Assembly (NCBI GenBank): GCA_017541205.1
Contig: JAFXZO010000067.1
Coordinates: 1-60,749 of the forward strand
Source of the DNA: Clostridia bacterium
Lineage (GTDB): Bacteria; Bacillota; Clostridia; Christensenellales; Aristaeellaceae
Direction: 5' to 3'
DNA length: 60,749 bases
Of the stretch, positions 34,056 through 45,012 are shown one piece after another. The position numbers and the translations under genes were made by a program. Within the stretch, counting starts at the first letter, position 1. The number at the start of each line of letters is the position of its first letter. The notes below the pieces were generated by a model. That model saw only the letters and a program-made list of their open reading frames with translations, had not been told where the DNA came from and ran no database searches.

Positions 34056-35402
34056 ATGGGCAAGTATTTCGGCACGGATGGATTCCGTGGGGAAGCGAAC
34101 GTCAACCTGACGGTGGAGCACGCCTTCAAGGTGGGCCGCTACATCGGATATTATTATGGCCGCGGCCACAAGGCCCGCATCGTGATCGGCAAGGACACCC
34201 GCCTGTCCAGCTATATGTTTGAATACGCCCTGGCCGCGGGCCTGACAGCCAGCGGCGCGGATGTGTATCTGCTGCACGTGACCAGCACGCCCTCCGTCGC
34301 GTATGTCACGCGGAACGAGCGCTTCGACTGCGGCATCATGATTTCCGCCAGCCATAACCCGTATTATGATAACGGGCTCAAGCTCATCAACGGCAACGGC
34401 GAAAAGATGGCCGACGAAGTGACCGCCCAGGTGGAAAAATACCTCGACGGCCTGCTGCCCGAAGCGCCCTACGCCACCCGCGACAGCATCGGCCGCACCA
34501 TCGATTACGCCGCGGGCCGCAACCGCTATATCGGGTATCTGATCTCCCTGGCCCGGTTTGATTTCAAGGGCATTAAGGTGGGCCTGGACTGCGCGAACGG
34601 CTCCACCTGGATGATCGCCAAATCCGTTTTCGACGCCCTAGGCGCGGAAACCCATGTGATCAACAACACCCCGGACGGCGTCAATATCAACACCAACTGC
34701 GGCTCCACCCACATCGAGGGCCTGAAAAAATATGTGAAGGAAAACCATCTGAACATCGGCTTTGCCTACGACGGCGACGCCGACCGCTGCCTGGCCGTGG
34801 ATGAAAACGGCGAATTGGTCAACGGCGACCAGATTCTTTACATTTACGGCACCTATATGAAGAAGCGCGATAAGCTGACCACCAATACCATCGTTTCCAC
34901 CGTCATGAGCAATTACGGCCTGGGCAAAGCCCTGAAGGAAGCGGATATCGACTGGATCCAGACCCAGGTGGGCGACCGCTTCGTGTACGAATGCATGCGT
35001 CAGGGCGGCCATTTGCTGGGCGGCGAGGACAGCGGCCACATCATATTCAGCAAGTACGCCACCACCGGCGACGGCGTGCTCACCTCCATCAAGGTGATGC
35101 AGGCGATGATCGACCAGAAGCTGCCGCTGAGCAAGTTGGCGGAGCCCATCAAGCTCTATCCCCAGGTGCTCAAGAACGTCCGCGTCGCGGATAAGGACGC
35201 GGCCCTCTCCAACCCCGCCGTACAGGCCGCCTATGAGGCAGCCCAGAAAGCGCTGGAGGGCAACGGCCGCGTGCTGCTGCGCAAGAGCGGCACCGAGCCC
35301 GTCGTGCGCGTGATGGCGGAGGCCGGCAGCACGGAAATCTGCAACAAGTACGTGGACGAGATCATTGACGTGATGAAAGCGGAAAACCTGATCGCCAACT
35401 GA
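34056..35402 (+). CDS. glmM: Phosphoglucosamine mutase
   Basis: 448 residues, full GlmM length; TTAGGAGG precedes the ATG. It has the GlmM opening GKYFGTDGFRG, the phosphoserine loop MISASHNPYYDNG near residue 100, the metal loop AYDGDADRCLAV near 240, GGEDSGHII and the C-terminal phosphate site LRKSGTEPVVRVM. It makes glucosamine-1-phosphate for UDP-GlcNAc. The next gene, 19 bases on, encodes a GlmU-C-like protein, consistent with the same pathway. Confidence 0.96.
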   Translation: MGKYFGTDGFRGEANVNLTVEHAFKVGRYIGYYYGRGHKARIVIGKDTRLSSYMFEYALAAGLTASGADVYLLHVTSTPSVAYVTRNERFDCGIMISASHNPYYDNGLKLINGNGEKMADEVTAQVEKYLDGLLPEAPYATRDSIGRTIDYAAGRNRYIGYLISLARFDFKGIKVGLDCANGSTWMIAKSVFDALGAETHVINNTPDGVNINTNCGSTHIEGLKKYVKENHLNIGFAYDGDADRCLAVDENGELVNGDQILYIYGTYMKKRDKLTTNTIVSTVMSNYGLGKALKEADIDWIQTQVGDRFVYECMRQGGHLLGGEDSGHIIFSKYATTGDGVLTSIKVMQAMIDQKLPLSKLAEPIKLYPQVLKNVRVADKDAALSNPAVQAAYEAAQKALEGNGRVLLRKSGTEPVVRVMAEAGSTEICNKYVDEIIDVMKAENLIAN

Positions 35403-35421
35403 GAGAAAAGGGGTGTCCTCC

Positions 35422-36084
35422 ATGCTGAAAACCAAGGATTTATACGATCTTTCCCATACCCTGGCCGCCCCGCTGCTGGAAAAAACGGAATATCCCTGGG
35501 AAGCGCTGGACGGGATCAAGGAATTTATCCTTTCCCTCGGCCCGACGCTGCCCAAGGACGAATACGACGAGGTTTCGCCGAACGTGTGGGTAGCCAAGGA
35601 CGCGAACGTGTACCCCACGGCCATGCTCGGCGCGCCCTGCATCATCGGGCATAAGACCGAGGTGCGCCACTGCGCCTTTATCCGCGGCAGCGCCCTGGTC
35701 GGCGACGGCGCGGTGGTGGGCAATTCGGTGGAAATCAAAAACGCCATCCTGTTCGACGGCGTGCAGGTGCCGCACTTCAACTATGTGGGCGATTCCGTGA
35801 TGGGCTATAAGAGCCACATGGGCGCGGGGTCCGTCACCTCCAACGTCAAGAGCGACAAGACCCTCGTCGTGGTCAAGGACGGAAGCGAGCAGATCGCCAC
35901 CGGCCGCAAAAAGTTCGGCGCGATGGTGGGCGATTTCGTGGAGGTCGGCTGCAACAGCGTCCTCAATCCCGGCACGGTGCTCGGCCCCCGCGCCAGCGTG
36001 TACCCCACCTCCTGCGTGCGCGGCGTGATCCCCGCCGATCATATCTTCAAGAACAAAAACGAAATCGTGCTGCGGAAAAAGTAA
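35422..36084 (+). CDS. Hexapeptide-repeat protein related to the C-terminal domain of GlmU
   Basis: 220 residues; the ATG at 35422 is better spaced from AAAAGGGG than the GTG at 35413. The left-handed beta-helix dominates: VWVAKDANVYPTAMLGAPCIIG, ALVGDGAVVGNSVEIKNAIL, VPHFNYVGDSVMG, MGAGSVTSNVK. This resembles GlmU C-terminal repeats (HFNYxGDxxxG, GAGxxxxNx), but there is no nucleotidyltransferase half. An acyl- or acetyltransferase acting on an aminosugar is likely. Coupling to glmM suggests glucosamine-1-phosphate acetylation, which is inference. A separate GlmU may exist elsewhere. Confidence 0.82.
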   Translation: MLKTKDLYDLSHTLAAPLLEKTEYPWEALDGIKEFILSLGPTLPKDEYDEVSPNVWVAKDANVYPTAMLGAPCIIGHKTEVRHCAFIRGSALVGDGAVVGNSVEIKNAILFDGVQVPHFNYVGDSVMGYKSHMGAGSVTSNVKSDKTLVVVKDGSEQIATGRKKFGAMVGDFVEVGCNSVLNPGTVLGPRASVYPTSCVRGVIPADHIFKNKNEIVLRKK

Positions 36085-36330: not shown

Positions 36331-36359
36331 TTGAAGTGCCACGGAAAGTTTGCTATAAT
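36331..36359 (+). promoter_or_regulatory. Extended -10 promoter of murB-whiA
   Basis: TTGAAG (36331-36336), 17 bases, TATAAT (36354-36359) preceded by TGC, a full extended -10 element. Confidence 0.8.
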
Positions 36360-36380
36360 GATCGGGGAGAATGGATAAAA

Positions 36381-37286
36381 ATGATGTTTTTTGAAAGATT
36401 GAACCGGCTGAATGCGCAGATCCGCGTACAGCTGAACGTTCCGCTTTCCCGGTATACCACGCTCCGGGTGGGCGGTCCGGCGGATTATTTTGTGGAAATC
36501 GAAGATGAAAAGGGCCTTATGGACGTGCTGCGCGCCGGGAAGGAAACGGGGGAGGACGTCCTGCTGCTTGGCAACGGCTCCAACCTTCTGGTGCGGGACG
36601 GCGGCTTCCGCGGCGTGGCCGTGCATTTCGGGCGCGCGTTTTCCAAGGTGGAAAGGCAGGGGGATCATCTGTACGCCCAGGCCGGCGCTCTGCTTTCCGG
36701 CCTTTCTGTTCGGGCGCGGGACGAAGGGCTTTCCGGGCTTGAATTTGCCCAGGGCATCCCGGGCACGGTGGGCGGCGGCGCGTACATGAACGCCGGGGCG
36801 TACGGCGGGGAGCTCGGCGCGCTGATAAAAACCGTCCGAATCTGGGACGGCCGGGAAATTCGCCAGATCCCAGGCGAACAAATGGATTTTTCCTATCGCC
36901 ACACGCGGGCGATGGATGAACGATGGATCATTTTGGGGGCGCTGTTTGCCCTGCAGGCGGGCGATCCCCGGGCGATCGACGCCGCCATGCGCGATTACGC
37001 GGCCAGGCGGCGGGACAAGCAGCCGCTGGAGTATCCGAGCGCCGGCTCCTTTTTCAAGCGTCCGGCGGGGCACTTTGCCGGGGCGCTGATCGAGCAGGCG
37101 GGCCTGAAGGGCCTTACCGTCGGCGGCGCGCAGGTGAGCGAAAAGCACGCCGGGTTCCTGATTAACGTGGGGAACGCAAAGGCGGCGGATTTCCTCCTGC
37201 TCATGGAGCAGGTCCGGCAGGCGGTGTATGAACGGTTCCAGGTGCGCCTGGAGCCGGAGGTGCGCATCGTGGGGAGTGACGCATGA
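36381..37286 (+). CDS. murB: UDP-N-acetylenolpyruvoylglucosamine reductase
   Basis: 301 residues; ATG at 36381, with GGGGAG 12 bases upstream. It is the type II (Gram-positive) MurB. FAD-binding features: YTTLRVGGPADYF, LLLGNGSNLLV, LEFAQGIPGTVGGGAYMNAGAYGG and YRHTRAM. The catalytic SAGSFFKRP is near residue 225, with a C-terminal glutamate in LEPEVRIVG. It completes UDP-MurNAc synthesis using NADPH. The stop overlaps the whiA start by 4 bases (ATGA). Confidence 0.96.
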   Translation: MMFFERLNRLNAQIRVQLNVPLSRYTTLRVGGPADYFVEIEDEKGLMDVLRAGKETGEDVLLLGNGSNLLVRDGGFRGVAVHFGRAFSKVERQGDHLYAQAGALLSGLSVRARDEGLSGLEFAQGIPGTVGGGAYMNAGAYGGELGALIKTVRIWDGREIRQIPGEQMDFSYRHTRAMDERWIILGALFALQAGDPRAIDAAMRDYAARRRDKQPLEYPSAGSFFKRPAGHFAGALIEQAGLKGLTVGGAQVSEKHAGFLINVGNAKAADFLLLMEQVRQAVYERFQVRLEPEVRIVGSDA

Positions 37287-38293
37287 GCTTTTCATCCCAG
37301 GTGAAGCAGGAATTGCTGCGCATCCAGCCGGAAAAGCACTGCTGCATGCTGGCGGAATTGAGCGCCCTGACCCAGGCGGCGGGCTCGCTGCGCCTGAGCG
37401 GCGGGGGCAAGGTGCAGGTGGTGTACGAAACGGAAAACCCGGCCCTGGCCAAGCGCATTTTCCTGCTGCTCAAGCGCCGCATGGAAATCACCCCGCAATT
37501 GGAATTCAACCGGCATAAGCGGCTGGGCGGGCGCAGGCTGTCGATCCTCACGGTATCGGAGGGCGACGCGAGGCGCCTGCTGATCGCCCTTCGCATGCTC
37601 CAGGAATCGGAGAGCGGCACGGTGTTCAAGGGCGTTCCCCGCGCGGCGATGACCCGGCGCTGCTGCCGCGCCGCGTTCGTCCGCGCCGCGTTCCTGGGCG
37701 GGGGCTCCATGACCGCGCCCGATCAGGAATACCATCTGGAGTTTACGTCCAGCCCCAGCCGCTCGGAAGCGCTGATGAAGATGCTGGAAAAAAGCGGCAT
37801 CGAATCGCGCCTCACCCAGCGCAGGGATACGGACGTGGTATATATCCGCCGGGGGGATGACGTGGTCAACTGCCTGGCGCTGATGGGCGCGCACAGGGCG
37901 CTCATGGAAATGGAAAACATCCGCATCGGCCGGGACGCCCGCAACCAGGCGAACCGCGCCCGCAACTGCGACGAGGCGAACCTGAAAAAGCAATTGTCCA
38001 CGGGGGAGAGGCAGGCGCAGGCCATCGTGCGCTATTCCCTGGCCCACAGCCTTTCCGCGCTGCCGGACGAACTGCAGGAGATCGGACGGATCCGGATGCT
38101 GCATCCCGAAGTATCACTGGAGGAATTGGGCCAGATGCTGCCAAAGCCCATTGGGAAATCCGGGGCCAACCACCGGATGCGGCGGCTGATGCGCCTGATC
38201 GAAATAGACCAAAGACAGGACGGAGACCAATACCATGATAACGCGGACGCTGGATTTGTCGGGTGTCACGCCCCTGAACCGGACCCAGATTGA
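37283..38293 (+). CDS. whiA: WhiA, LAGLIDADG-fold / HTH regulator
   Basis: 336 residues. Family landmarks: SFSSQVKQELLRI at the start, CCRAAFVRAAFLGGGSMTAPDQEYHLEF in the first LAGLIDADG-like domain, VNCLALMGAHRALMEMENIRI, and the helix-turn-helix LEELGQMLPKPIGKSGANHRMRRL. WhiA controls division-related genes in sporulating actinobacteria and affects cell division in Firmicutes. The last 19 residues (from about H318) read through the first 59 bases of the next gene and go past the usual family end. In Bacillus the order is rapZ-glmR-whiA-crh. Here rapZ and glmR are absent and murB comes directly before. Confidence 0.95.
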   Translation: MSFSSQVKQELLRIQPEKHCCMLAELSALTQAAGSLRLSGGGKVQVVYETENPALAKRIFLLLKRRMEITPQLEFNRHKRLGGRRLSILTVSEGDARRLLIALRMLQESESGTVFKGVPRAAMTRRCCRAAFVRAAFLGGGSMTAPDQEYHLEFTSSPSRSEALMKMLEKSGIESRLTQRRDTDVVYIRRGDDVVNCLALMGAHRALMEMENIRIGRDARNQANRARNCDEANLKKQLSTGERQAQAIVRYSLAHSLSALPDELQEIGRIRMLHPEVSLEELGQMLPKPIGKSGANHRMRRLMRLIEIDQRQDGDQYHDNADAGFVGCHAPEPDPD

Positions 38294-39260
38294 GCATCTG
38301 GTGCATTTGTCGGGCGACTTTGTGTCCAAGATCATCTTTGAGCACAAAAACCGCACCATCAACGGAAAATCGATGCTGGGCCTCCTCTCCATGGGCGAAA
38401 CGGGCAAGGACCCGGTCACCCTGATCGTGGACGGGGAGGATGAGGAGGAGGCCTGCACGGCCATCACGGAGATGCTCAAAGCGGGGGTGGTGCCCCCCAA
38501 ATCGGCGGTGGACGCGCAGCAGCTGATGCAGCGCATCAAGGATCGGTACGTCACCATCCTGGGGGATAACCTGGTGGGCATATATCTGCATGGCTCGCTG
38601 GCCTCCGGCTGCTTCCGCTGGGACGGGAGTGACATCGATTTCCTCGTTGTGGCGAAAAAGCCGCTCTCCTTGGATAAGAAGATCGCCCTGGTGGAAGCCC
38701 TCCATGCCCTGGAGAGCGAAGCGCCGCCCAAGGGGCTGGAAATGAGCGTGATCCTGGAGAAAAACTGCCGGGATATCCCATGCCCCGTGCCCTTTGAAAT
38801 CCATTATTCGTCCGGGCACCGGGAGGAATACGAGCGGGACGGGCGGGGCTTCTGCGCCCGCATGCACGGCGAGGACCCGGATCTGACCGCCCATATCCTG
38901 TGCGTCAACGCCTTTGGCGAGGTGATCTGCGGCCCCGGCATCACCCGGGTGTTCGATCAGGTAAAGAAGGAGGACGCGCTCAGGGCCATCCTCTTTGACG
39001 TGGAGGACGCGCAGGATCAGCTGCATGAAAACCCGGTGTACTATGTGCTCAACCTCTGCCGCGCCGTCGCGTATAAGCGCGAGGATCTGGTTCTGAGCAA
39101 GCGCGAGGGCGGCGAATGGGCGCTGCGCCATATGCCCTCCGTCCATCAGCAGGTGATCCAGGCGGCCCTCAACGCGTATAACACGGGCCTTGGCATGTTC
39201 TATAACAAAGGCGAGGCCGAAGCCTTCCGCTTTGACGCGATGAAGGAACTGAAAGAATAG
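38235..39260 (+). CDS. Crh/HPr-like domain fused to an AadA/DUF4111-type nucleotidyltransferase
   Basis: 341 residues in one frame. Residues 1-85 align without gaps to HPr/Crh: VSKIIFEHKNRTINGKS then MLGLLSMG and LIVDGEDEEEACTAI. Position 15 is Asn, so no PEP-dependent phospho-His. Ser46 is kept in GKS46MLGLLSMG, the HprK site. Residues about 110-200 are a nucleotidyltransferase: H119-GS121 and SD133-I-D135 with FLVV. The C-terminal part (YYVLNLCRAVAY ... GEWAL) matches DUF4111 of aminoglycoside adenylyltransferases. It occupies the crh position after whiA. A Ser46-controlled nucleotidyl transfer to an unknown substrate is inferred. Antibiotic resistance is one possibility but not shown. Confidence 0.82.
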   Translation: MITRTLDLSGVTPLNRTQIEHLVHLSGDFVSKIIFEHKNRTINGKSMLGLLSMGETGKDPVTLIVDGEDEEEACTAITEMLKAGVVPPKSAVDAQQLMQRIKDRYVTILGDNLVGIYLHGSLASGCFRWDGSDIDFLVVAKKPLSLDKKIALVEALHALESEAPPKGLEMSVILEKNCRDIPCPVPFEIHYSSGHREEYERDGRGFCARMHGEDPDLTAHILCVNAFGEVICGPGITRVFDQVKKEDALRAILFDVEDAQDQLHENPVYYVLNLCRAVAYKREDLVLSKREGGEWALRHMPSVHQQVIQAALNAYNTGLGMFYNKGEAEAFRFDAMKELKE

Positions 39261-39285
39261 CTTTGTTTTTTCCTTTTTTGCTCCG

Positions 39286-39311
39286 CCTGCCGGTTTTCCG
39301 GCAGGTTTTTT
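39286..39311 (+). terminator. Terminator after the HPr-fusion gene
   Basis: CCTGCCGG/CCGGCAGG perfect 8-bp stem with a TTTT loop, followed by six T. Confidence 0.9.
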
Positions 39312-40321: not shown

Positions 40322-42397
40322 TCAGCCCAGGCCGTACCAGACGGGGCTGCCGTACTGGCAGGCTTTGCTGCCCGTGACGGTCAGGCGCAGGGTAAACGCG
40401 CCGCGGGGCAGGCGGGATCCGGGGATCATGATCCGCTGGGGCGGCCAGAAGGCTGCGCCGAAACATTCGTCGTTCAAAAACACTTCCGCCATTTCCTGGG
40501 CGGACAGGGAGATCAGCAGGGGCCCCAAACAGGCGGGCACATGGGCGCTGTACGTGATTTGGTGCAGCGCTTTGTTTTCGCTTTCAAACGTGAAATCCCG
40601 ATTTCTCAGGGTAACGGCAGGGGCGGTTTCCTTTGGCAGGGCGTCCCATTCCGCCTGGGAATCGCAGGAAAAGATCAGCAGGCTTTCGTTCGGGGCAAGG
40701 CAGATCCGGGCGCGCCGACATTTTCCGTCCGCCCGGCTCTCCAGCCGCCAAATCTGGTTCTGCCAAAGATCGTATTTTCCAAGCGGCGCGGAGGCGGGGA
40801 AACGGATGTCCGCTTCCAGGGGCTTTTCCAGGCTTTCGTTGACGAGCAGCCACACCGCGCGGCCGTGGAACTTCAGGCGGGCGGCGCGAAGATGCGGCTG
40901 CGCGGGCTCGCACGCGCAGTCGGGCGGCACGGAAAACACATCCCGGGATACGGAGGGAAATGCGCCGTCCAGGGTCATCACGGCCTCAAACGTCCTATTT
41001 TGGCAAATCAGAGCGCCGTTTTCCTCCCGGCAGTCCTTCCATACGCTTTCGGGCAGGTATTGGAAGGAGCGCTGGCTTTCAAACAGGGGCTTGACCTCCT
41101 CCCAGCGCAGCGCGCGGTTGCGGCAGAGCACGGCGATCCCGCATGCCGCTTCGCCCTCCGTCATCAGGCAGGAGAGCCGCGCCATATAATCCGCCCAGAG
41201 GCGATAGTGCGGCCACCAGATGCTGCCGGGCCCTACGTCCGGCGGGCGTTCGGCGCTGCGCCTTCCGCGCAGGCTGTAATAGAACGCGTGCGGGATGAAC
41301 AGGTTCACCCCGCGCACGGCCAGATAATCGATGTACCATTTCATATCCGCGCCGGTGAAATGCCAGGGGTTTCCGTTTCGGCTGCACGCGCCGAAGCATT
41401 CGTTGGAATTCCGTCTGCGGCCCATGAGGCGCGCCATATCCGCGCCGCATTTGGCCATCACGCTGTCCATGCCGTTCACGCCGCCTTTTTCGGGGGACAC
41501 CCAGCGGAACACCAGGTCCTGCCCCGGAATGTGGAAATACCGCTGCGGCTCGATGTCGTCGCTCTGGTGCGGGTGCCCCATCAGGGCGACCCCGTGCTTT
41601 TCACACCATTGGGACAGGCGCCGATAGTAGACCTCGCCTTCCCGCTGCCGGATCAAAAGGCGGTACAGCGCGGTATCCGCGTTTTCTTCGCCCGTGAACA
41701 GGCCCGTCAGGCCCTCCAGGCTTCCGCCCGCCGCCACAAACACCTGATCGAAACCCTTCGTCCAAGGCTGCAAACCGCGGGTATTGCGGCCCAGGACGCT
41801 GGGCTCGTCCGTAAAAAAGCCAATGACGGTATTGCCGAAATACGCGCTGAATTCCCGGTAATAGGCTTCATGCGTGATGCGGATGAATTCATCCACCGCT
41901 TCCGGGTTCAGGATATCGGCGCTGCGGGGGGCGTTTCTTTCCCCGTCGTCTTCCCCGTAATGGATGCCGCGGATGGTGCCGAGGCTGAAACGCTCAACGA
42001 GGAAGCCCTTTTTTGTTTCGCAGAGGATATGGTCGCCGGGCAAGGGCGTTTCCGCCAGCGCCAGGCCCCGGCTGGCCCAGTCGGGGCGGGACTGCACGAT
42101 GAGCCCGGAGGCGGAGCCGGAGGGGTACATGCCTTCGTCATACAGAACGATCCGCATATCGAGCGCATGGGCCGTTTCGATGGCCGTGCGCAGGTATGCG
42201 AAGAACGAAGCGGACAGATACCCGATCCGCTTGCTGATCCCCATCCGGGGATGCAGCACCACGCCCCACACCCCGTGATCGGCAAAATCCCTGAGCTGCC
42301 GCTTGATTTCCGCATGGCGCAGATCGCCGTTCAAAAACCAGAAGGGGATCGGCGTGTATTCGCGGGCAGGATGAAGCAGCGGTTCCCAAAAATCCAT
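40322..42397 (-). CDS. Putative glycoside hydrolase, GH106-like (alpha-L-rhamnosidase-type)
   Basis: 691 residues; ATG at 42397 with AAAGGAGG upstream, no signal peptide. The N-terminal half looks like a TIM barrel: IPFWFLNGDLRHAEIKRQL, GVWGVVLHPRMGIS, RIVLYDEGMYPSGSASG, FGNTVIGFFTDEPS with a likely acidic catalytic or binding pair, and YIDYLAVRGVNLFIPHAFYY. The C-terminal third is beta-rich (LTVTGSKACQYGSP), like galactose-binding or sandwich domains. The pattern recalls GH106-like rhamnosidases; family assignment is tentative. It is last in a minus-strand unit GH105-GH28-this gene, which fits removal of rhamnose from rhamnogalacturonan pieces inside the cell. Confidence 0.6.
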   Translation of the reverse strand: MDFWEPLLHPAREYTPIPFWFLNGDLRHAEIKRQLRDFADHGVWGVVLHPRMGISKRIGYLSASFFAYLRTAIETAHALDMRIVLYDEGMYPSGSASGLIVQSRPDWASRGLALAETPLPGDHILCETKKGFLVERFSLGTIRGIHYGEDDGERNAPRSADILNPEAVDEFIRITHEAYYREFSAYFGNTVIGFFTDEPSVLGRNTRGLQPWTKGFDQVFVAAGGSLEGLTGLFTGEENADTALYRLLIRQREGEVYYRRLSQWCEKHGVALMGHPHQSDDIEPQRYFHIPGQDLVFRWVSPEKGGVNGMDSVMAKCGADMARLMGRRRNSNECFGACSRNGNPWHFTGADMKWYIDYLAVRGVNLFIPHAFYYSLRGRRSAERPPDVGPGSIWWPHYRLWADYMARLSCLMTEGEAACGIAVLCRNRALRWEEVKPLFESQRSFQYLPESVWKDCREENGALICQNRTFEAVMTLDGAFPSVSRDVFSVPPDCACEPAQPHLRAARLKFHGRAVWLLVNESLEKPLEADIRFPASAPLGKYDLWQNQIWRLESRADGKCRRARICLAPNESLLIFSCDSQAEWDALPKETAPAVTLRNRDFTFESENKALHQITYSAHVPACLGPLLISLSAQEMAEVFLNDECFGAAFWPPQRIMIPGSRLPRGAFTLRLTVTGSKACQYGSPVWYGLG

Positions 42398-42411
42398 GGA
42401 AGCAGCCTCCT

Positions 42412-43884
42412 TTATTCGGCTTTCCGAACGTCGAGCGCAATCTGCCGGCAGCGGCGCAGGGAAACGGTCGCGTGTTCTTCCAGGACGCAATCGGAAAAGC
42501 GCATGTCCCGCGCTTCGTACCCCGGCACGTCAAAGCCACTTACGTCAATGCCGGGCACGGGATGGTCCTCCTTCTCCCAGTAATCGCGGGCCCAGCCGGT
42601 AAAGCGCACGCGCTCGCAGCAAAAATCGGAAAACACGGGCGGCACGTCCGAGCCTTCGCCGTCGTCGTTATACAGCACGGCGCAGGCGAGGAAGCGGGAA
42701 AGCACGCTGTCGCGCACCGAAATATCCTTGACGTACCCGCCGCGCTTTTTGGTCGCCTTGATCTGCACCCCATAGAGGGAATGTGCAAGATTGCAGTCCC
42801 AGATCTTCACGTCCTCCACGCCGCCGCTCATTTCGCTGCCGATGGCGATGCCCAGGCCGTATTCGCTCACGCAGTCGAACACCCGGATATGGCGCGTGGG
42901 CCGATGGATGCGGTTGCCCTCCGGGTTTTTGCCGCTTTTGATGGCGACGGAATCATCGCCGGTGTGGAATTCGCTGGCGAACAGGGTGCAGCATTCGCTG
43001 GAATCCGGGTCCCAGCCGTCGCCGTTCCACACCTTTTCCGAGCGGAACACGCAGTGGTCGGTGACGATATTTCGGGAATAGAGCATATGCACGTTCCAGC
43101 TGGCCCCGTTTTGCAGCGTCAGCCCGGTGATGCGGATGTTTTCGCAGTTGCTCAGGTTGATGAGCCTTCCGCGCGCGCGGCCGGGGATGGTGTGGTCGTT
43201 TTCATATTCCCTGATTTTGTCGCCGAGCGAGGCCAGATAGGCTTCCAGGCGCTTTTTTTCCGCGTCGATGATGCCGAGCGCCAGCTCCTGCCCGCCGCCG
43301 GAGATCACGCCCTTGCCGTAAATCAGCACGTTTCGGCAGTTGGGCCCCGCCGCGTGGTCCATTTCACCCAGGTTCAGCAGGCTTTGGTAGCATTCCATTT
43401 CCGTCCCTTCAAAGCGGCTGCGGATCTTGGGCAGATAATCCTTTGGGTCCTGCGTGCCCTGGAGCACCGCGCCCTGCGCAAGGCACAGGGCCATATCGCT
43501 GTGCAGCCTGAGCGCGCCGGTCAGATAGACGCCGGCGGGGAGATACACCTCCTCATCCGGCCCGCAGCGGTCAACGGCGGCTTGCAGGGCTTTTGTGTCC
43601 ATGGTTTTCCCATCGCCCAAAGCGCCGAAATCCTTCACGTTCAGGCGGCGGCGCTGAAAGCCGGGGCGGGCCCGGGTACAGCCGATTTCTTTTCCGTTCA
43701 TCAGCACCCGGATATCATGCGCGCGATCCGGGCCCGGGGCCTCCAAGGCGTAATGCGTGCGGTTCGTATGCCCGATTTCCCGGCCGTCCAGCAGCACGGC
43801 GTATTCCGCGTTTTCCGGAGAGCCCGCCGGCTGATCCCACCATAAGGTCAGGCCGTTCGCGGCGAAAGCGCTATGGATTTCCAT
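42412..43884 (-). CDS. GH28 family glycoside hydrolase (polygalacturonase/rhamnogalacturonase type)
   Basis: 490 residues; start ATG overlaps the GH105 stop (TGATG) and has GGAGG upstream. An N-terminal fibronectin-like part (about 1-85) is followed by the GH28 beta-helix with VKDFGALGDGKTMDTKALQAAVD. The acidic residues are in NGDGWDPDSSECC and HTGDDSVAIKSGKN, and IAIGSEMSGGVEDV follows. The histidine usually found in the GHG segment before IGS is absent: the text here is EYGLGIAIGS. No signal peptide, so it works on imported oligosaccharides. It probably cleaves galacturonosyl linkages of rhamnogalacturonan together with the GH105 enzyme. Confidence 0.88.
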   Translation of the reverse strand: MEIHSAFAANGLTLWWDQPAGSPENAEYAVLLDGREIGHTNRTHYALEAPGPDRAHDIRVLMNGKEIGCTRARPGFQRRRLNVKDFGALGDGKTMDTKALQAAVDRCGPDEEVYLPAGVYLTGALRLHSDMALCLAQGAVLQGTQDPKDYLPKIRSRFEGTEMECYQSLLNLGEMDHAAGPNCRNVLIYGKGVISGGGQELALGIIDAEKKRLEAYLASLGDKIREYENDHTIPGRARGRLINLSNCENIRITGLTLQNGASWNVHMLYSRNIVTDHCVFRSEKVWNGDGWDPDSSECCTLFASEFHTGDDSVAIKSGKNPEGNRIHRPTRHIRVFDCVSEYGLGIAIGSEMSGGVEDVKIWDCNLAHSLYGVQIKATKKRGGYVKDISVRDSVLSRFLACAVLYNDDGEGSDVPPVFSDFCCERVRFTGWARDYWEKEDHPVPGIDVSGFDVPGYEARDMRFSDCVLEEHATVSLRRCRQIALDVRKAE

Positions 43885-44975
43885 CAGGCATCCTCCTTCC
43901 GTTCGTCCAGGCATTGCTGCATTTCCACGCACATCAGCAGGAACGCGCCGACGCCGTGCAGGTCGTTCACGCTGGTTGGCCGCGCGCAGTAAAACGCGTA
44001 ATCGCCCACGCCGGTCCCAACGCACACATTGCCGATCAGAAGATCGTCTCCGTCCCGGGCAAGGCTGCCGATCACGCCCGCATACCCGCGCCGGGCCGCG
44101 TCCAGAAAGTCCCTTTCCATCATGCCGCGGCGGACGGCCTTGCACAGCGCCGCGACATACAGGCAGGAGCAGGAGTTTTCCAGCCAGTTGCCTTCCTGGC
44201 CGCCCTTGTTCACCACCTGGTACCAGCGTCCGTCCCTGGATTGATAGCGGCACAGGGCTTTGAGCAGGTCCACGGCCATCTCCTGGACGGCGCCGAAACC
44301 GGGATGGTCGGCCGGAATAAAATCAAGCTCGTTGAGCAGCGCCACCGGCACCCAGCCCATGGAGCGGCCCCAGAATTCCGGCGCGCGGCCCGTGATCGGA
44401 TCCGCCCAGGGGGCTTCAAACCGCCCGTCCCACGCGTGGCGCATGAGGCCCGTTTTTTCGTCCCACGTCACCTGCTTCATCAGCAGCGCCTGGTGGATGG
44501 TTTCGTCGGTCAGCGCGGGCAGATCGTAACGGTACGCGTATTCCGCGCAGAAGGGCCCGGCCATGTACAGCCCATCCAGCCACATCTGGTCCGGCGTCCC
44601 GGTCTTGTGCCAATAGCCGCCCTGCGAGTTGCGCGGGATGGCCTTGACTTCTTCATAGACGGACGCGAGGCATTTTTCATAATAGCCGTCCTTCGTTTCG
44701 TCCAGGAGCGAAAAGAGCAGGATGCCCGGCTGGATATCGTCCAGATCGGCGAAGCTGCACGCCCGGATGCCGCCGTTTTCATCGAATACGGAATCCACCC
44801 AGGCTTTGATGTAATCGAAGTATTTCCTTTCGCCGGTCAATTGCCAGACGCCGTGCATGCCGGAAAGGAAAACCCCCTGGTGATAATGGAAATGGCCTTT
44901 GGGGGGCAAATCGGGCGCGGAGAATCTGCGCATCATGGTATCGCAGGCGGCTTTTGCGTAATCAAGGGGCGTCAT
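43884..44975 (-). CDS. GH105 unsaturated rhamnogalacturonyl hydrolase (YteR/RhiN-like)
   Basis: 363 residues; ATG at 44975 with GAGAGGTG upstream (a GTG 12 bases earlier is the alternative). The family's (alpha/alpha)6 pattern is visible: FHYHQGVFLSGMHGVWQLTGERKYFDYI, DDIQPGILLFSLLDET, GGYWHKTGTPDQMWLDGLYMAGPF with the catalytic aspartate in QMWLDG, and FWGRSMGWVPVAL. The C-terminal end has PTSVNDLHGVGAFLLMCVEM. It removes unsaturated galacturonic acid from rhamnogalacturonan oligosaccharides made by lyases. Cytoplasmic. First gene of the minus-strand half of a divergent locus with YtePQ-type transport genes. Confidence 0.93.
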   Translation of the reverse strand: MTPLDYAKAACDTMMRRFSAPDLPPKGHFHYHQGVFLSGMHGVWQLTGERKYFDYIKAWVDSVFDENGGIRACSFADLDDIQPGILLFSLLDETKDGYYEKCLASVYEEVKAIPRNSQGGYWHKTGTPDQMWLDGLYMAGPFCAEYAYRYDLPALTDETIHQALLMKQVTWDEKTGLMRHAWDGRFEAPWADPITGRAPEFWGRSMGWVPVALLNELDFIPADHPGFGAVQEMAVDLLKALCRYQSRDGRWYQVVNKGGQEGNWLENSCSCLYVAALCKAVRRGMMERDFLDAARRGYAGVIGSLARDGDDLLIGNVCVGTGVGDYAFYCARPTSVNDLHGVGAFLLMCVEMQQCLDERKEDA

Positions 44976-45012
44976 GAAAACAAGCACCTCTCTTTATCGA
45001 TCAGATGCCTGT

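Follow-up and report, generated by a model that had tools for sequence, protein, structure and literature searches.

To our knowledge, the role of Crh in Clostridia and the substrates of HprK in cells that have no phosphotransferase system (PTS) HPr with Ser46 are open questions. Both are raised by one gene on contig JAFXZO010000067.1 of a Clostridia bacterium of the family Aristaeellaceae (the whole 60,749-nucleotide stretch analysed is called the window below), in which an HPr/Crh domain and a nucleotidyltransferase of the AadA type are read as a single frame directly after whiA (Table 1). If Crh has been joined to an enzyme, to which activity has it been tied, and could HprK control that activity? 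The answer developed here, to which we give an even chance of being correct, is that the fusion is an HprK-addressed enzyme in which a phosphate on Ser46 would switch nucleotide transfer. The initial annotation of this locus, made from the sequence alone, was aware of no described protein of this architecture, and our search of the open-licence literature, by titles and the starts of abstracts, likewise returned none.

The Crh half keeps Ser46 and lacks His15

In the predicted structure, residues 1-85 form an HPr fold (beta-alpha-beta-beta-alpha-beta-alpha), as judged by VIA-align against the top Foldseek chains, and they score 46.2 bits against Pfam PTS-HPr, above the gathering score of 23. 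We aligned this half of 31 full-length fusions with 14 stand-alone Crh proteins encoded next to whiA and with ten HPr proteins of the genus (best copy per genome); the start codon of one fusion (L115) is not settled, and its row starts six residues ahead of the conserved domain start. His15 is absent from all fusions and stand-alone Crh proteins (0/31 and 0/14) and present in 10/10 genus HPrs, and Ser46 is found in 31/31 fusions, 14/14 stand-alone Crh proteins and 0/10 genus HPrs, all ten of which have Lys46. The surroundings of both sites are strongly constrained in the fusions: Ser46 lies in the context NGK-S-[MV]-LG, residues 40-54 around it reach a mean pairwise identity of 84.5% compared with 59.8% for residues 1-85, and the region that lost His15 reads as an invariant TP-x-[NSTD]-R-x-Q. 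With whiA directly 5' of the fusion in 30 of the 31 genomes (the exception is a contig end), these results bear out the initial annotation, which had seen in residues 1-85 an HPr/Crh domain in the crh position that had lost its phospho-His and retained Ser46.

The enzyme half keeps the catalytic residues of AadA and departs from its acceptor site

The same structural comparison recovered the whole two-domain AadA fold in the second half, and its AadA_C domain exceeds the Pfam gathering score. According to the available part of PMC6065190, the ATP, magnesium and catalytic-base residues of AadA are Ser36, Ser46, Asp47, Asp49, Glu87, Arg192, Lys205 and Tyr231. Profile alignment to AadA-type chains gives as their counterparts, in the same order, S121, S132, D133, D135, E169, R276, K289 and Y315, those of Ser36 and Ser46 being assigned by alignment position and not by structure superposition, and every one of these residues is invariant in the 31 fusions and in 24/24 stand-alone enzymes compared. 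The partner of the Crh domain thus is, as the initial annotation had it, an enzyme of the aminoglycoside-adenylyltransferase type.

The acceptor side is different. Besides Glu87, the same portion of PMC6065190 proposes Trp112, Asp182 and His/Asn185 as spectinomycin determinants of AadA. Asp182 corresponds to fusion column 266, where Asp is found in 2/31, and His/Asn185 to column 269, which is Tyr in 31/31; the Trp112 column (194) holds no Trp, and all 31 fusions have His, Tyr or Trp in column 195, a one-residue shift being possible. The NCBIfam ANT models all fall short, the best being ANT_9 with 76.2 against a cut-off of 340, and several positions (W129, C207, Q305, Q309, N313 and M321) do not vary among the fusions but do vary among the stand-alone enzymes. 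As far as its available text goes, PMC6065190 also states that enzymes of similar architecture that keep only the N-terminal ATP and magnesium residues may have a different function. Given this statement, and because the ATP, magnesium and catalytic residues are kept while the acceptor determinants are not, the natural reading is that the nucleotidyltransferase is active and that its acceptor has changed. We consider it fairly likely that this acceptor is something other than a standard aminoglycoside; standard aminoglycosides are doubtful substrates, since the Asp182 and His/Asn185 positions are mostly or wholly unconserved.

Neither half looks like a remnant. The ratio of nonsynonymous to synonymous substitution rates (dN/dS), calculated for 25 of the 31 fusions from the 145 of 300 pairs with dS of 0.05-1.2, is below 1 in 145/145 pairs for the whole protein and for each half, and is similar in size between the halves. 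Mean pairwise identity is 61.4% over residues 99-237 and 63.2% over residues 238-320. Between the two domains, the mean predicted local distance difference test score (pLDDT) is 69 over residues 81-90.

Distribution and origin of the fusion

Within the family, 118 of 308 genomes match the query at 1e-20, and 31 of these 118 do so over the full length: 28 of the 29 genomes of genus g1 (the genus, throughout), G032 of genus g5, and G219 and G220 of genus g65, with the counts for the sister genera g5 and g65 covering matching genomes only. The frame is uninterrupted in all 31, which settles the question whether it might split into two genes. The other 87 matching genomes, out of 277 in the family without the fusion, hold the enzyme part or little more; 170 family genomes without a match were not itemised. 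Outside the family no fusion was found in a sample of 396 genomes of the order (27 match at 1e-30; two are full-length, both of this genus) or in a sample of 391 genomes of the class (20 match at 1e-40, of which G000 alone does so over the full length). Plasmids yielded 230 matching records, none covering 80% of the query. A short-pattern scan of genome contigs (one sequence) returned 11 loci, ten of them HPr-only; the single fusion, in the uncultured Clostridiales metagenome-assembled genome RUG14706, has the same position as G010:C3.

To place the fusion among its unfused counterparts, 22 whiA loci were examined, two of which carry the fusion. A small stand-alone HPr-like gene comes next in 14, from the family (G236, G030, G114, G162, G132 and G033, with weak matches in G030 and G033) and from the order (G057, G354, G038, G056, G059, G055, G036 and G040), and six have neither (G018, G062, G329, G031, G049 and G029). 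G018 is the only g1 genome without the fusion, and the frame directly after its whiA is one that we take to be guaB-like. Five genomes (G236, G114, G132, G162 and G354) hold both halves apart, with crh after whiA and an HPr-less enzyme elsewhere; in G114 some 2.8 Mb separate them in the coordinates of a single contig. The G236 Crh reads PLTRT compared with PLNRT in the window's fusion, and the HPr-less enzyme of this genome (L150; G236:C58:2900-4200, minus strand) sits inside a much longer open frame with extra sequence on both sides. We reconstructed a tree of the 31 fused enzyme halves and 24 stand-alone enzymes, a subset of the 87 family enzymes without HPr, in which a branch with support 100/99 sets all fused halves apart, so that one fusion event would be enough; g65 is placed within g1 on a long branch.

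HprK, HPr-like proteins and known Crh partners in the genus

A family search recovered HprK in 30/31 fusion genomes and 28/29 genus genomes; the G000 protein, encoded on G000:C77, contains GESGVGKS, and the G219 copy consists of two pieces at contig ends. HprK was not matched in G010 and G030, and these absences are weak because the same search also missed HprK in the B. subtilis control, an organism that has it according to the accessible part of PMC8004850. Of the 29 genus genomes, 10 have an HPr-family match at 1e-20 or better, the class to which the His15-bearing copies belong; among the ten genus genomes that are at least 90% complete, two have such a match and all ten have HprK. Second His15-bearing HPrs (L141, L142, L143 and L144, from G006, G026, G021 and G003) carry Asn (three copies) or Gly (one copy) at residue 46, and Ser46 is found in 0/14 of the His15-bearing copies read in the genus. 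The site of these second HPrs is GMHARH or GMHARQ.

The HARP motif is missing from a third small HPr-like protein, which keeps Ser46 in 7/7 copies read (L033, L145-L149 and L152), from six genomes besides, in part, G000. Copies of the second and third kinds were read by eye from frames, and only L033 was aligned. L033 occupies positions 580-804 of its locus (G000:C87), followed by frames that presumably are yqfC- and yqfD-like; L152 is one of two such copies in G014. The third protein may be a second HprK substrate. In every copy read in the genus, the two sites at which HPr is classically phosphorylated are thus divided between different proteins.

The initial annotation had proposed binding by CcpA, which finds no support in G000, the one genome searched (84.86% complete), where all nine matches to the NCBIfam ccpA model are below the cut-off and the best reaches 204.5 of the 442.35 bits required. 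MgsA was not found in any of the 23 genus genomes searched (23 of 29), so that this known Crh target seems to be gone.

Stand-alone relatives of the enzyme

Among the matches listed, stand-alone enzymes are 36-49% identical to the enzyme half of the window, and those compared carry H190 in 24/24, S192 in 22/24 and Y269 in 24/24. Some have neighbours of the resistance or efflux type: APH(3')-type kinases near L107 and L111 (239.3 and 232.2 bits, NCBIfam cut-off 205), GNAT acetyltransferases in L107, L108, L111 and L095, a MATE gene in L104 and an ABC-F gene in L097. Others have ordinary neighbours. In L107 (937-2280, G062) the HPr-less enzyme shares one frame with one GNAT domain, followed by the APH(3')-type kinase, and in L108 (994-2703, G068) it shares one frame with two GNAT domains. 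A relative with 35.8% identity to the enzyme half lies on the Campylobacter jejuni plasmid NZ_CP048757.1 (L140), in an island with aph(3')-IIIa, ant(9), a GNAT gene and aph(2'')-If. Because of the GNAT frames, the resistance and efflux neighbours and the Campylobacter island, the stand-alone relatives suggest that the acceptors of the subfamily are small and resemble drugs or amino sugars.

A proposed mechanism and its alternatives

As far as the available text of PMC13130090 goes, HprK phosphorylates and dephosphorylates Crh on a serine, and in B. subtilis unphosphorylated Crh inhibits MgsA until phosphorylation by HprK ends the inhibition. By analogy, we propose that a crh gene after whiA was joined in frame to an AadA-type nucleotidyltransferase gene, and that HprK, following the energy and carbon state of the cell, would add phosphate to Ser46 of the Crh domain and take it off. 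The phosphate would alter the seating of Crh on the attached enzyme, or substrate access, and would thereby switch the transfer of a nucleotide (AMP, if AadA is a guide) from ATP to an acceptor, which may be a small hydroxyl-bearing compound, perhaps aminocyclitol- or amino-sugar-like. An amino-sugar or cell-wall compound is an attractive but unsupported guess, prompted by the surrounding glmM, GlmU-like, murB and whiA genes. Since MgsA was not found and G000 has no CcpA over the cut-off, the simplest reading would be that Crh has acquired another enzyme as its target and become locked to it. Ser46 is probably phosphorylated by HprK, and gating of the enzyme by this phosphorylation, in either direction, seems to us about evenly balanced. 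A broader scenario is tentative, and we would sooner doubt than accept it: HprK would no longer report through the PTS HPr and would instead switch a metabolite-nucleotidylating enzyme, possibly acting on an amino-sugar or cell-wall compound, the His15-bearing HPrs having lost Ser46 or vanished and Ser46 persisting on the fused Crh and on one small HPr-like protein.

Several observations weigh against an HprK-switched enzyme. The HPr half is below the NCBIfam HPr cut-off (TIGR01003, 39.6 against 47.9 bits), and the HPr-type models PRK13780 (38.9, cut-off 110) and PRK13782 (34, cut-off 123) are likewise not reached. The third HPr-like protein also keeps Ser46 in all copies read, so HprK could be kept for it alone, and G018 has both HprK and this protein without having the fusion. 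HPr-less enzyme relatives occur in G062, G063, G068, G082, G089 and G093, each with one weak HPr-family match among the matches listed, which speaks against any general partnership of Crh and enzyme; a general co-occurrence of the two, considered as a candidate, is unsupported in these genomes. The dN/dS of the HPr half exceeds that of the enzyme half in many pairs, and how the two domains are placed with respect to each other is uncertain in the predicted structure (predicted template modelling score, pTM, 0.74).

Other explanations distribute this evidence differently. HPr and Crh act by binding partners, and the Crh domain may be a docking or regulatory module with partners of its own (HprK, a LacI-type regulator or another protein), the enzyme being independent or acting on the docked partner, so that the fusion would couple location and dosage and not activity. 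This is possible, and we place it on the unlikely side: T12, P13, R16, Q18 and the Ser46 region are invariant beyond what a phosphorylation site alone would need, no stretch measured is less conserved than the linker, the domain placement is uncertain, and nine sub-threshold ccpA-model matches exist in G000, but none of these exceeds the cut-off, MgsA was not found in the genomes searched, and the fusion-specific pattern of W129, C207, Q305, Q309, N313 and M321 is what one would expect if there were an interface or a new acceptor.

An improbable alternative is that an antibiotic-modifying enzyme of the aminoglycoside or aminocyclitol type was captured into the murB-whiA-crh run, with the Crh half in its old role and the fusion free of regulatory meaning. 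The kinase, GNAT, MATE and ABC-F neighbours of some stand-alone relatives, the Campylobacter plasmid island and the fact that ANT(9) is the best NCBIfam match would fit such a capture; set against them are the altered Asp182 and His/Asn185 positions, the lack of a Trp at the aligned Trp112 column, an ANT(9) score far under its cut-off, and a distribution in which 28/29 genus genomes have the fusion compared with 87/277 family genomes for the HPr-less enzyme. MNT antitoxins, nucleotidyltransferases of this broad fold, modify a protein, and they are among the structural matches; together with the altered acceptor site, this leaves a very small chance that the enzyme nucleotidylates its own Crh domain, an HPr-like protein or a protein bound to Crh. 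That two adjacent genes were wrongly joined in annotation or assembly has practically no probability, given the purifying selection over both halves in the pairs used, and an artefact or a split gene is ruled out by the 31 genomes with a full-length fusion.

Returning to the HprK-addressed enzyme, its retention across almost the whole genus indicates an activity to which Crh has been tied, and it would allow HprK phosphorylation and enzyme activity to be followed jointly on a single protein. In this group of uncultured Clostridia, Crh, a small carbon-status protein that as a rule is encoded on its own beside whiA, is permanently joined to a relative of antibiotic-modifying nucleotidyltransferases, which suggests that a chemical modification may be under the direct control of the cell's carbon status. 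If this is true, a relative of drug-modifying enzymes has been taken into core regulation, and the outputs of the HprK switch extend to nucleotidyl transfer.

Features of the window

The fusion is the last gene of the murB-whiA-fusion run. For murB, the listed start is a GTG, and the true start may be further downstream. The whiA and fusion genes overlap by 59 bases in different frames, and in several relatives whiA stops before the fusion begins. The GlmU-like protein beside glmM covers positions 216-393 of the 393-position model TIGR03992 and lacks the nucleotidyltransferase half. The glycoside hydrolase run on the other strand suggests pectin breakdown.

Table 1 The fusion gene, its parts and its neighbourhood in the window
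Feature	Coordinates	Strand	Remarks
Crh-nucleotidyltransferase fusion gene	38235..39260	+	single frame, 341 codons and stop
HPr/Crh domain, residues 1-85	38235..38489	+	
Residues 12-18 TPLNRTQ, site of the lost phospho-His15	38268..38288	+	T12, P13, R16, Q18 invariant in 31/31 fusions
Ser46 codon tcg, within NGKSMLG, presumed HprK site	38370..38372	+	Ser in 31/31 fusions
Linker, residues ~86-98	38490..38528	+	52.0% mean pairwise identity, lowest among the stretches measured
AadA-type nucleotidyltransferase with AadA_C domain, residues 90-341	38502..39257	+	
Catalytic span: HGS 119-121, SDID 132-135, Glu169 (= AadA Glu87)	38589..38741	+	roles from the available part of PMC6065190
whiA	37283..38293	+	directly 5' of the fusion; TIGR00647 248.7 bits, cut-off 44.1
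murB, 5' of whiA	36336..37286	+	PRK13905 348.5 bits, cut-off 259
Promoter-like site TTGAAG-17-TATAAT before murB	36331..36359	+	consensus match only
Terminator-like hairpin 3' of the fusion, 9 pairs and T run	39285..39306	+	consensus match only
glmM, just 5' of the murB-whiA-fusion run	34056-35402		538.1 bits, cut-off 447.55
223-residue GlmU-like protein beside glmM	35413-36084	+	acetyltransferase end only, below model cut-offs
Glycoside hydrolase gene run, families 106, 28, 88	40322-44987	-	family matches

Comparison with known systems

The "aminoglycoside adenylyltransferase domain-containing" proteins that Clostridia and Campylobacter plasmids encode as stand-alone enzymes belong to the same subfamily as the enzyme half; they lack the HPr domain, are patchy in the family, and in some cases lie among resistance- or efflux-type genes. 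With AadA / ANT(3'')(9) and ANT(9), the fusion has in common the two-domain fold and the ATP, magnesium and catalytic-base residues, whereas it departs mostly or wholly from Asp182 and His/Asn185, has no Trp at the Trp112 column, carries an N-terminal Crh domain, and is near-universal in the genus.

On the regulatory side, the available text of PMC10714963 describes whiA, glmR and crh of B. subtilis as one operon. The fusion resembles the Crh of Bacillus in its HPr fold, the loss of His15, the retention of Ser46, its place directly after whiA and the presence of HprK in the genome. It differs in being covalently joined to an enzyme, in the invariant TP-x-[NSTD]-R-x-Q where the phospho-His region stood, and in a genus in which the known enzyme target MgsA was not found in the genomes searched. 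The control of MgsA by Crh in B. subtilis, as described in the accessible part of PMC13130090, offers a comparison of how the fusion might work, in that Crh regulates an enzyme as a phospho-switch; in B. subtilis this involves the binding of two separate proteins, whereas in the fusion Crh and another enzyme form one polypeptide.
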